A DNA stretch of 64,000 nt. Origin: a cyanobacterium endosymbiont of Epithemia clementina EcSB. GTDB lineage: Bacteria > Cyanobacteriota > Cyanobacteriia > Cyanobacteriales > Microcystaceae. Shown piece after piece: positions 28,129-53,228 of this stretch. The position numbers and the translations under genes are program-made. The stretch is taken from positions 365,110 to 429,109 of the forward strand of contig NZ_CP123991.1 of the NCBI RefSeq assembly GCF_029919255.1, written 5' to 3'. Below the pieces are notes generated by a model. It was not told the DNA's origin. It made no database searches and was given only the letters and a program-made list of their open reading frames with translations. The stretch's first letter is position 1. Each line of letters starts with the position of its first letter.

Positions 28129-28149
28129 AGTTCGATAGTTTTTATCTTA

Positions 28150-28290
28150 AATAAAAACAATGGTTTTCGCGTAAGTAGGTATAAGCAACTGGTCGAGCGA
28201 AAAAGTTAAAAAAGCAGTTACAAATACTTAAATTTTCCGAATGTTCAATCTAGGAGATGTTTTTAAGTTTATCGTTTCTCTTAGGTTTAC
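28150..28290 (+). repeat. Decayed repeat, copy 1 (partner at about 39925-40060)
   Basis: A block of about 110 bases, with the core GTAAGTAGGTATAAG...AAATACTTAAATTTT...AATGTTCAATCTAGGAGAT, aligns to 39943-40025 nearly without gaps. Both copies can be read in one frame with similar peptides (SRYKQLVERKS, SSYKYLNFPNVQS; NRYEKLVEQEG, NSSKYFNF, NVRSE) interrupted by stops. It is eroded coding sequence present twice, either a dead insertion sequence or a dead gene family. I do not recognise the protein. Confidence 0.5.
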
Positions 28291-28726: not shown

Positions 28727-28960
28727 ATGGCTGTTTCCCATACTGATTCAAGATGAGATCCTTTACTCACCCGTGCTGATGGTATCATTTCAGAAGTAGA
28801 AAGAGCTTCGTATCATAGTGCAATTGTAGCAAGTGAATATGATATTCCTGCAGTTATAGACATTTCCTATGCTACTTAACTCTTAAAAGATGAACAACGG
28901 GTGACAATTGATGGGCAAGAAAAGTATTGCAGAAATTTTAGACGATTATTAGATAATTAG
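28727..28960 (+). pseudogene. Fragment of a PEP-utilising enzyme (swivelling phosphohistidine domain)
   Basis: A single frame reads MAVSHTDSR, stop, [40 protein letters not shown], stop, then LLKDEQRVTIDGQE and ends in TAG. This matches the PEP-synthase/PPDK mobile domain pattern [36 protein letters not shown]. The phosphocarrier histidine survives but the rest of the enzyme is missing. It differs from the dead ppsA at 43140-44240, so two separate members of this superfamily have been lost. Confidence 0.85.
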
Positions 28961-29033: not shown

Positions 29034-30524
29034 ATGACAAATTCATCAAAAAAAACTCAATCTTTACTCAGACAATTCAAATTGTTCGATTGGATCGCTC
29101 TAGGATGTATTGTTATTCTCAGTTTGGCACTAGGAGTAGTGTTAGTGAGAGGAGAACAAATTCCCTTGCGGGTCAGTTATTTTAGTTGGAACGGGAAAAA
29201 AATTGGGCTACAAGATAAAGCTTTTAGAATAACTTTCAACCGTCCTGTCGATAAAGATAGTGTTAAAAAATATCTATCTATTGATCCTCCCCTTCCTGGG
29301 AAAATTAGCTGGCAAGGACGCCAATTAATTTATACTTTAGATGATCCCCCAATTTACGGGACAAATTATCAAATTAAATTGCAAAATGCTCACAGAACTT
29401 ATGATCAGAAACCGATTGAATCATTTGTTAGTTTATTTAGCACTCGTGATCGTACCTTTGCTTATATTGGCGTTACTAAAGAAGAACGAGGGCAGCTAAT
29501 TCTTTATAACATTACTGATGCTAATCAGCCGAAAAAAACAATTCTAACCCCTCTAGACTTAATTGTCACAAATTTTAGAATTTATCCCAATGGTAATAAA
29601 ATTCTGTTTAGCGCTTATGAACCTAGTCTCAGGGGTAAAACATTAGTCAACCAGCAGTTATACACGGTCACCACTGGTTTACAAGTCTCTCCTAATGGTG
29701 TTGAAATACCACGAGCTGGGAGACTCAAACGCATCCTTGATAGAAAAGACTATCAAAATTTGAGTTTCGATCTGTCGCGCAATGGTCAAAGTATTGTCAT
29801 TTGGCGAATTAATCATAAAAACCCAGCTGATTCAGGGTTATGGACGGTTTTTGACGGGCAAGACCCCAGACCATTAGGAGTTCCTGGAGGAGATTTTGTT
29901 ATTTCCCCTGATGGTAAGCGTGTGGTTATCTCTCAACGAGGTGGGGTGGGAATAGTTCCTTTGACTTCTGATGGGGGATCGTCAGAATTTTTAACAGGGT
30001 ATGAAAAAAGTCTAGGATTTTCTGCCGATGGGAAGCAGATACTTCTGGTTAGAGATAATCGAGATTATACGCAATCACTGATAATTATCAATCGAAATAA
30101 AAAAAAGCAAGAGTTATTCCGTACCCTTTATCCAATTATTGACTGTGAGTTTGAACCTAGAGAAGAAAAATTGCTTTATTGTCTTAAAACTGACTTAGTT
30201 GAGGATAAACAAGGTAAATACCGTGAAGAACCTTTTCTTTCAGTAATTGATGTGGAAAAAAAGGTAGATTTTCCTCTACTTGCTTTACCCAACTATCGGG
30301 ATGTCCAACTAAGTATGTCTCCTGATGGAGTCGCTTTATTATTCGATCAAGTGGCGACAAGGGTTCCCAAGTCAACTGATGATTTAATTACCTCAGAACA
30401 ACAGGCAATTGTTGATGGACAAGTGTGGTTACTTCCACTGCCTGAGTTAAAAGAATCAGACAAAACTCTTAAAATTAAACCAGAAGAACTAGAAATCGGG
30501 TTCAAACCACAATGGTTGCCTTAA
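29034..30524 (+). CDS. Membrane-anchored protein with Ig-like domain and TolB/WD40-like beta-propeller
   Basis: A 496-residue conserved cyanobacterial protein of unknown function. A single N-terminal membrane helix (about residues 18-40, WIALGCIVILSLALGVVLVR) anchors it, with the bulk probably periplasmic. Residues 45-125 look like a bacterial Ig-like domain of the SbsA/Big_5 kind (FRITFNRPVDKDSVKKYLSI, PIYGTNYQIKL). The remainder has repeated propeller-like strands such as GNKILFSAYEP, GQSIVIWRINH, VISPDGKRVVISQ and MSPDGVALLFDQ. The frame is intact and full length for the family. Its conservation in a decaying region suggests function, which I cannot name. Confidence 0.75.
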   Translation: MTNSSKKTQSLLRQFKLFDWIALGCIVILSLALGVVLVRGEQIPLRVSYFSWNGKKIGLQDKAFRITFNRPVDKDSVKKYLSIDPPLPGKISWQGRQLIYTLDDPPIYGTNYQIKLQNAHRTYDQKPIESFVSLFSTRDRTFAYIGVTKEERGQLILYNITDANQPKKTILTPLDLIVTNFRIYPNGNKILFSAYEPSLRGKTLVNQQLYTVTTGLQVSPNGVEIPRAGRLKRILDRKDYQNLSFDLSRNGQSIVIWRINHKNPADSGLWTVFDGQDPRPLGVPGGDFVISPDGKRVVISQRGGVGIVPLTSDGGSSEFLTGYEKSLGFSADGKQILLVRDNRDYTQSLIIINRNKKKQELFRTLYPIIDCEFEPREEKLLYCLKTDLVEDKQGKYREEPFLSVIDVEKKVDFPLLALPNYRDVQLSMSPDGVALLFDQVATRVPKSTDDLITSEQQAIVDGQVWLLPLPELKESDKTLKIKPEELEIGFKPQWLP

Positions 30525-30678
30525 GGTTTTATTTAGGGGTTATTCGTTGACTTTGTTAATGTTTGTAACAACATTTTGCAAGAAATGCCTTAAGTTTTTT
30601 AGTTTCTTCTCCAGAGATGGTAGGCTTAGTTCAGAACTGGATAGTAACACACCAAAATGTGTGGACAGTAGTTAACAA

Positions 30679-30684
30679 GGAGTT
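30679..30684 (+). promoter_or_regulatory. Ribosome-binding site of the psaM-like ORF
   Basis: AAGGAG lies 10 bases before the ATG at 30695. Its presence supports this 30-codon frame as a real, formerly or still translated gene. Confidence 0.6.
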
Positions 30685-30694
30685 TATTTCCCAT

Positions 30695-30787
30695 GCCCAT
30701 ATCGGAGCTCCAAGTTGTTGCTTTAATAATTGCTTTGGTTCCTAGACTTCTTACTTTTCACCTATCTATGGAACTTTGTAAGTAAAA
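30695..30787 (+). CDS. psaM: PsaM-like photosystem I subunit XII, possibly decaying
   Basis: A 30-residue hydrophobic peptide starting MPISELQVVALIIALVPRLL and ending TFHLSMELCK. PsaM of cyanobacteria is a 30-31-residue single-helix protein with the pattern SDTQxxxALxIALVPxFLAFRLxxxLYK (family knowledge). The match spans the entire length, including IALVP and LSxEL-K at the end. Deviations at usually conserved positions, such as arginine after the VP pair inside the membrane helix, histidine for the FRL arginine and a one-residue deletion near the N-terminus, suggest relaxed selection. The frame has no stop and keeps an AAGGAG site. Either it is a live, divergent PSI subunit or a photosystem relic. 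Confidence 0.72.
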
Positions 30788-30971
30788 TATTCGTTTTATA
30801 AAATAGTCAGCTGCTCATCGTTGATAGTTAAATTCAAGAATAATTTTTCTTTATTCTTATCGTTTGAAAAACCGTGTGAGCAGTCTACAAAACTAATTGT
30901 TAGCACATTTGTTGACTGATTACTGTCCAGAGTTTTTTATTGATGATTCTTCCTCACACAGTTTAATGCTT

Positions 30972-31346
30972 ATGGCTGCACCTCAAATTTTAGAAACTCA
31001 TCGGAGTCCCAATTTCTCTTCTGTCCGCCGACGTCGTTGCAAACCGACTCAGAAAGAAATTTATCTTCAGGGTCAATGGATGACTACCGAAATTAAAGTT
31101 AAACTGATCGTTAATGGAACTTTGTCAATTCTTGCAGCTTTTACTTTGCTAAGGCTGCTTCCTTATCAGTTTTTACAACAGGAAAAACTAAAGGAAGTTC
31201 GAACTCAAGTCCAAGAAACAGAAAGACGGGTGGGAGAGTTGAGAAAGGATTTCAGCCGGAGTTTCGATCCACATCAAGTCAGACAAATGATGCAAGAGAA
31301 TAGCTCTTTAATTGATCCCAATAAACTGCAGATTTATTGGAAATAA
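30972..31346 (+). CDS. Conserved cyanobacterial hypothetical protein, one membrane helix plus coiled coil
   Basis: About 124 residues starting MAAPQILETHRSP. The frame is open to a TTG at 30897, but the ATG at 30972 (or 30966) gives the more credible start. A basic segment (VRRRRCKPTQKE) precedes a hydrophobic helix (about LIVNGTLSILAAFTLLRLLPY). Then comes a charged, coiled-coil-like region (QEKLKEVRTQVQETERRVGE) and an SFDPHQVRQMMQENSSLIDP tail. This layout, with short basic N-terminus, single helix and coiled coil, recalls septum-type proteins such as FtsB, but I see no proof of that. The function is unknown. Confidence 0.65.
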   Translation: MAAPQILETHRSPNFSSVRRRRCKPTQKEIYLQGQWMTTEIKVKLIVNGTLSILAAFTLLRLLPYQFLQQEKLKEVRTQVQETERRVGELRKDFSRSFDPHQVRQMMQENSSLIDPNKLQIYWK

Positions 31347-32724
31347 TTTTTTATATCTTTAGACAATAATCAAGGTGTTACGCAGAAAAGGCCAGTCGAG
31401 TCTAGTTTGTTTTTAGGCGACTAGAGTGTGTTGGCAATTTTTTCTGTTGGTTATTTTGAATTGCTTGATATTTTTTCTGATAAATATTTGCTAAATGAGG
31501 ATTAAGACATTTATCCTCAACCTCTCTCAAACAATATTTAACTTCGATAATTCTTTTATTAGATAAAGTCAAGTTTAACTATCCTCGTATTGTATAAATT
31601 TTAGAATGTTGTTGTTCAGGAATACCCTAGATGCTAATTCTAGATACATCTATCCCAAAACTATTGAAGGAAACTCCATCAAAGGAGTGGATAAAGCGAT
31701 CATTTAAGATAAAAAAAAGAAAGGCAAAATTAACTTCTAGAAGAATCGGTAAGATTCTTCTAGAAAGGGCTGGAAATGGAAAGTAACAAAAATTGTTCAT
31801 GTACTAAAAAAAATAAGAAAGACTTTAGATAATAGAGACAGATGAAACTCAAAATAGCGTAAGGATAAAAGTACAGATAAGGTGATTATTCATTGATAAT
31901 GATCCAGTACATATAAATAGTTTAGTTAAAGTCGAATAGAAACAATGAGAAGAGAAAGGATTATATCTATTTTTTAGACTAACTCATTGTCCGAAAGTAA
32001 ATTCAACAAAAAGGAAAGAGGATCAAATAAAAGCTTATAAAATTGCCAAAAAAATATTTAAAGATAATTATTATTGAGCTAAGATAGTCAAATAAAGTTT
32101 TACTCAAAAGAATTACTCTAAGAGATATCAGTCGAAACAATATAAAGTTAACTTGAATTACTTAACGATAGCAACAAAGAATAATTTATATTTTTAACGT
32201 TACCTTTAGCTATTTATTTACCTATAATCCCGAAAGTCTTCAATATGTTGACTTAAATGATGTTTCTTTAATGAAAGATGATAACAATAGATTTTTAACT
32301 ATTACTAAGTCTAAATAACAGTAGAAAATATCTAAGTCTTTTTAGACATAAGTAAAAATTAATTACAATGACCAGACAATTATAACAATAATATCTTCTG
32401 GTAGAAGATTTTAAAGATAAAATACTTGTACAAATAATTATTGAAATTCATCTTAAAAGGATAAATTATTCCACAAATGTCATTGCATATACTAAGTAAC
32501 CCATACTTCACTCCTATAAAATGATCTCAGTAAATCTCTAGAAGATTTTATTAATAAATCTCGGGTTGTGAATTAATTTACATTAAAGTTATTATTTAGA
32601 CATCCTGACCGAGACAACTGTCTTGAACTCCGTCATTCAACCCAACTTACAAAATTATTAATACTCTAGACAACAACCCCGAGATAGTAAGAAGCTTCGA
32701 ACGCTATTTTTGCTACTCAATCAA
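31347..32724. other. 1.4 kb spacer with an unidentified dead gene
   Basis: On the minus strand a frame from about 31660 down to a TAG at 31402-31404 reads GIPEQQHSKIYTIRG, a stop, then LNLTLSNKRIIEVKYCLREV and VEDKCLNPHLANIYQKKY with a lysine/glutamine-rich tail. It looks like the C-terminus of a genuine soluble protein with two nonsense codons, but I cannot name it. A 13-bp hairpin lies at 31735-31765. The rest (31770-32720) shows nothing assignable. Confidence 0.45.
31735..31765. repeat. Hairpin with 13-bp perfect stem
   Basis: Bases 31735-31747 pair with 31753-31765 around a 5-base loop, next to the unidentified dead minus-strand gene. There is no adjacent intact gene. Confidence 0.5.
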
Positions 32725-52804: not shown

Positions 52805-52885
52805 TTGCCTATTGAAAATAACAACAGTATAATATACCTAGATTCGGTACCAATTTCGATGAATCGTGGTGTGAGAAGAATAAGC

Positions 52886-52934
52886 AGAAAAGCATTTGGG
52901 GTCGAAACATGGCGAGACTCCCAAGTGCTTTTCT
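52886..52934. repeat. Long imperfect hairpin between the orphan terminator and glpK
   Basis: Bases 52886-52900 pair with 52920-52934 (15 pairs including one G-T), and a 19-base loop with GTC/GAC potential lies between. The stem has G:C content above that of the surroundings. It is 295 bases before the glpK start. It could be a terminator, a leader structure or part of a small RNA. Confidence 0.45.
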
Positions 52935-53228
52935 CATCAGAGTAGGAAGTACTAGTTTTAAAGTCTCAGTAGTACTGAACCTCCATATAAGTGATTAACT
53001 TAAATTCGGTTTTCGGCCTTAAAACAAATTTAAGGGGTTAAGTTACTTGTCAAACAGTCTCATGGTGAGGGTTTTGGCTGATTTGATTATAGATAAAAGG
53101 TCTTAATCATATATAAGACAGTCTATGGATATTGTCTTAAGCCTTGGCAGCTCAAAATTATTCACGATGACGATCCAAAGAATTTTCAATAAGAAATGCT
53201 TTGGACAACCTATTACTAATGATAGCCA

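Follow-up and report, generated by a model that had tools for sequence, protein, structure and literature searches.

The window analyzed here is a 64,000-nucleotide stretch of contig NZ_CP123991.1, from the cyanobacterial endosymbiont of Epithemia clementina EcSB, and it includes a short psaM-like reading frame between a PD40/beta-propeller-like gene and a gene of the slr1601 family. A tree of these two neighboring genes from seven genomes placed this genome among four symbionts and beside the spheroid body of R. gibberula (NZ_AP018341.1; support, 0.87), with strain SU2 (NEED01000023.1) next, and on this phylogenetic evidence we assign it to the rhopalodiacean spheroid bodies (diazoplasts). 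The remaining two symbionts were the E. turgida spheroid body (NZ_AP012549.1) and Cyanobacterium sp. uoEpiScrs1 (NZ_OX373462.1), the latter of which we take to be an Epithemia symbiont from its name. Our alignment of the locus also covered seven genomes, namely the four symbionts together with SU2, Rippkaea orientalis PCC 8801, and genome G004. The features of the locus, in window coordinates, are as follows:

29034..30524, + strand: PD40/beta-propeller-like gene, upstream of and adjoining psaM; used as a selection control
30677..30682, + strand: AAGGAG ribosome-binding-like site, intact here
30693..30785, + strand: very probable relic of psaM, with a frame of 30 codons and a stop that is intact here
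30744..30746, + strand: AGA (Arg) at PsaM column 19, a Gly/Ala column; AGA also in the R. gibberula and E. turgida symbionts, AAA in uoEpiScrs1
30759..30761, + strand: CAC (His) at PsaM column 24, an Arg column; CAT in the R. gibberula symbiont and uoEpiScrs1, TAC in the E. turgida symbiont
30786..30890, + strand: conserved element 3' of psaM, with TTCGTTTTATAAAATAG at 30790-30806 and then a hairpin
30972..31346, + strand: slr1601-family gene (NCBIfam: putative cell division protein), syntenic neighbor of psaM, under purifying selection

The initial annotation, made from the sequence alone, described an intact frame with an AAGGAG site and a full-length match to PsaM, and all three points were borne out. 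The frame is open on the forward strand from the ATG at 30693 to the TAA that ends at 30785 (translation, MPISELQVVALIIALVPRLLTFHLSMELCK); it starts 2 bases to the left of the position first assigned to it, and reading from 30695 runs into stops. The AAGGAG at 30677-30682 ends 10 bases ahead of the ATG, and the aligned site reads AGGAAG in the R. gibberula symbiont, AAGAAG in the E. turgida symbiont, and AAAGGG in uoEpiScrs1. Profile matches to the frame were weak and fell below the curated cutoffs, narrowly for Pfam PF07465 (E = 2.8e-4, 21.0 bits; cutoff, 21.1) and more widely for NCBIfam TIGR03053 (E = 0.0052, 16.3 bits; cutoff, 22.85); in the whole-genome profile search the frame scored 18.8 bits, again below the cutoff. 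With phmmer, we obtained 21 matches at E ≤ 1 among the sequences of solved structures; every one is named PsaM or photosystem I subunit XII, and the best match (E = 5.6e-5) extended over the full length. In SU2, PCC 8801, and G004, psaM is intact and stands before the same slr1601-family gene, and this synteny removes the doubt over identity, the weak profile scores notwithstanding. Based on its sequence and its neighbor gene, we conclude that 30693-30785 is a psaM ortholog. The PD40 gene lies beside psaM in this genome and is located elsewhere in SU2, PCC 8801, and G004.

The frame contains no frameshift, no stop, and no start loss, and it departs from PsaM only by replaced residues and a codon deletion. 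We aligned it with PsaM from 32 of the 35 genomes besides the four spheroid bodies (all but G019, G031, and G038, and including two UCYN-A genomes). An arginine within the membrane helix, a histidine in place of a conserved arginine, and the loss of one residue were all as previously described, the last being a three-base deletion at PsaM column 9 that is the sole change in length. Column 19 holds Gly in 27 relatives and Ala in 5, column 24 holds Arg in 32 of 32, and none has Arg at the former or His at the latter; the substitutions are not normal for these relatives, and the reading of the gene as decaying was not refuted by the comparison. Three further departures that had gone unremarked, Thr6>Leu, Ala22>Thr, and Tyr30>Cys, also occur in none of the 32. 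At the near-invariant columns 19, 22, 24, and 30, where the usual residues are present in 32, 32, 32, and 31 of the 32 relatives, this copy has Arg, Thr, His, and Cys. Compared with PsaM as represented by PF07465 and TIGR03053, it shares the orthologous locus, the full-length alignment, the C-terminal region, and the neighbor gene but scores under both cutoffs, has five residues unseen in the relatives and one deleted, and is encoded where no photosystem I core was found for the subunit to join.

The same codons are altered in the other symbionts. Codon 6 is CTC (Leu) instead of Thr in all four, the Gly codon 19 has become AGA in three and AAA in the fourth, and the Arg codon 24 encodes His in three and Tyr in the fourth. 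Most simply, these changes would be older than the split of the symbionts; because the same codons are changed in four of four spheroid bodies, constraint appears to have been lost before their divergence. Decay private to this genome is ruled out by the alterations in the other three. The proposal of the initial annotation that psaM is decaying holds, but the onset is to be placed in the common ancestor rather than in this genome. The start codon is lost in all three of the other copies, with codon 1 reading GTA in the R. gibberula symbiont, ATA in the E. turgida symbiont, and AGC in uoEpiScrs1; the last also carries an in-frame TAG and TGA, and the E. turgida copy has a 12-base deletion. Only in this copy, among the four, are both the ATG-to-stop opening and the ribosome-binding site intact. 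The R. gibberula and E. turgida symbionts resemble this one in clade, locus, neighbors, Arg codon, and photosystem I genes that are broken or were not found in the searches made, whereas their psaM copies have no start codon and this one reads through.

We searched the single 3,072,807-base contig for psaA/psaB, psaC, psaD, psaE, psaF, psaJ, psaL, and the psbA/psbD family. A search for psaA and psaB, which had been suggested as a check, returned only broken remnants: the family gave four overlapping matches at one place, the best of which spans positions 1-370 of 711 and contains 19 stops. Two overlapping matches were found for psaL (the longer with 7 stops), psaC was found in two frames with one stop each, and psaF was represented by a C-terminal piece with 4 stops. 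A piece of psaE (18-47 of 60) has no stop, psaJ matched in two separate frames, with one piece in each (the second at E = 0.018 only), and all three pieces of the psbA/psbD family have stops. There was no match to psaD in the contig, nor was any intact psaA/psaB, psaC, psaD, psaF, or psaL found there, and a plasmid search gave no match. The psaF and psaJ remnants still adjoin at G000:C1:1566987-1567353, in the SU2 order. With the same searches, the photosystem I genes of SU2 and of the UCYN-A genome G013 were free of stops. We conclude that, as far as the contig goes, photosystem I is lost. That these symbionts have lost photosynthesis is already known: a published analysis of the R. gibberula symbiont detected no functional genes for photosystem I or photosystem II (PMC5638926), and for 11 photosystem I proteins of a free-living relative, an ortholog is lacking from all six such symbionts compared (PMC12903740).

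A codon model fitted to psaM from nine genomes gave an omega of 0.627 in the spheroid-body clade versus 0.062 elsewhere, and a single omega was rejected (P = 6.5e-6); omega = 1 in the symbiont clade was not rejected (P = 0.53), in a clade-wide test that is weak for this branch alone. Three codons were preset as missing (the two stops in uoEpiScrs1 and one hybrid codon in the E. turgida symbiont), a step that can reduce the symbiont omega or not affect it but cannot raise it. As is to be expected from 31 codons, several branches were fitted with zero or very great length. For the neighboring genes, each analyzed in seven genomes, omega = 1 in the symbionts was rejected: the slr1601-family gene had a symbiont omega of 0.286 (P = 2e-10), slightly higher than the background of 0.161 (P = 0.057), and the PD40 gene one of 0.107 (P = 8e-82). 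The changes private to this copy of psaM are nonsynonymous in 4 cases and synonymous in 1, and 1 more affects the stop codon. Across the four symbionts, variation over psaM codons 1-26 is no lower than in the upstream spacer (36 of 69 versus 41 of 100 columns), and the slr1601-family gene varies at 92 of 375 columns.

We also simulated neutral evolution of the frame without indels, scoring it as surviving if the ATG was kept and no stop was gained. For the terminal branch, with its fitted length of 0.133 per base, the probability of survival was 0.49; from the common ancestor of the symbionts (0.18 per base) it lay between 0.35 and 0.49, at roughly 0.35 to 0.4, and it was 0.10 to 0.16 when the stem to the ancestor shared with SU2 was also neutral (∼0.45 per base), which is still not rare. 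One survivor among four lineages is unremarkable, and the intact frame therefore needs no selection. Because the other three copies are without a start, omega in the clade does not differ significantly from 1, and survival on this branch is 0.49, the openness of the frame does not show that the gene is used. Given 31 codons, weak constraint on this single branch could escape the test, the clade estimate being 0.63 and not 1.

Based on these results, we are highly confident that psaM (photosystem I subunit XII) is present at 30693-30785 as a unitary pseudogene, on the chromosome of the nonphotosynthetic spheroid body of a rhopalodiacean diatom. The gene was released from constraint before the four spheroid bodies split, as expected after photosystem I loss, which was probably the cause. 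Each symbiont lineage drifted afterwards, with the start codon disappearing in three, while in this copy the start has so far escaped mutation and no stop has arisen, the length having been changed by the three-base deletion only. Survival of an open frame is likely because the target is short, and the frame seen here was most likely left by luck; its peptide, if made at all, would be functionless. The initial annotation had offered two readings, a relic that still reads through after photosynthesis was lost or a divergent subunit of a photosystem I that was kept, and the former is supported by the broken photosystem I core and the neutral-like evolution; the latter is not supported.

Among the alternatives, it is improbable that the PsaM peptide has been retained for another role in this lineage only, for example as a small thylakoid membrane peptide. 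Such a role would fit the start, frame, and ribosome-binding site being intact here alone of the four symbionts, as well as the thylakoids that the E. clementina diazoplast keeps, according to a published description (PMC11070190). Against it stand the 4:1 ratio of nonsynonymous to synonymous private changes, including those at near-invariant positions (Ala22>Thr and Tyr30>Cys), the Arg inside the helix, and the neutral survival of 0.49 on this branch. A functional, divergent PsaM in a photosystem I kept as in UCYN-A is very improbable, even with an open frame, a ribosome-binding site, and a full-length match, and as a photosystem I subunit it is rejected for this contig, in which the core genes are broken. 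UCYN-A (the nitroplast) is likewise an endosymbiotic cyanobacterium of the same family, but it retains its photosystem I genes (without stops in G013), and its PsaM has the usual residues and none of the five unusual ones. A chance open frame unrelated to psaM, to which the profile scores under the curated cutoffs (one just under) might point, has a negligible probability and is refuted by synteny, since the frame has the same place, neighbor, and alignable DNA as psaM in SU2, PCC 8801, and G004, and 21 of 21 structure-database matches are PsaM.

Directly after psaM come TTCGTTTWATAAAAYAG and the hairpin, the arms of which (30809-30819 and 30875-30885) can form up to 11 pairs, 9 of them here, around a loop that is 55 bases long here. 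The hairpin is kept in three of the four symbionts despite the dead psaM and is deleted in the E. turgida symbiont. Across nine genomes, 86.9% of cells pair, compared with 27 to 48% in slid controls; four pairs are changed on both sides, a count reached by 13 of 500 shuffles, and the covariation score was reached by none of 500. Counting against covariation, 11 further pair types were reached or exceeded by 460 of 500 shuffles, and the signal from these nine related sequences is suggestive only. A covariance model recognized the element in 20 of 50 family genomes at E ≤ 0.001, 16 of them at E ≤ 6e-15 (a set that includes all nine training genomes), and in the other 30 the element is missing or unrecognized. 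No Rfam family matched the element at its gathering score; window positions 30400-31500 gave two subthreshold matches (E = 0.18 and 0.86), neither of them within the hairpin, and the single match from six relatives was to a rimP leader that overlaps the element in G008 but lies on the other strand (E = 0.62). The only promoter-like site found, at 30776-30804, is at chance level (mean of 1.4 in shuffles).

From codon 27 onward (30771-30806), 5 of 36 columns vary among the four symbionts versus 81 of 185 before (Fisher P = 6e-4), a slowness that becomes marginal when the test corrects for how the stretch was chosen (224 of 5,000 shuffles); for 30771-30869 in three symbionts, 20 of 88 columns vary versus 68 of 194 (P = 0.052). 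We claim no constraint on either stretch from these counts. It is conceivable, though doubtful, that 30771-30890 (the last codons, TTCGTTTWATAAAAYAG, and the hairpin) is an RNA element with its own job, such as a small RNA or a leader of the slr1601-family gene, in which case the element would outlive psaM after photosystem I loss and psaM decay would uncover it. The element may be no more than the 3' terminus of the former psaM mRNA.

Elsewhere in the window, part of the spacer at 28139-28276 has five further copies in this genome, several in the R. gibberula and E. turgida symbionts, and one in PCC 8801; these copies, with ∼68 to 80% identity over 55 to 140 bases, constitute a dispersed repeat. 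A 37-codon stretch ending in TAA (28766-28876) matches PF00391, the mobile domain of PEP-utilizing enzymes (E = 3.1e-7; positions 21-56 of 72), and is probably the remnant of another gene. Positions 52865-52936 match the Cyano-1 small RNA family (48.8 bits; gathering score, 41).

Among the papers listed by our literature searches, we found none reporting psaM in spheroid bodies. The gene is an ordinary pseudogene at an instructive stage, and a single alignment gives the order of events: constraint was lost before the symbionts split, starts then disappeared separately, and one frame has stayed open, probably by chance. In an eroding genome such as this one, a short open frame with a ribosome-binding site is no evidence of a gene.
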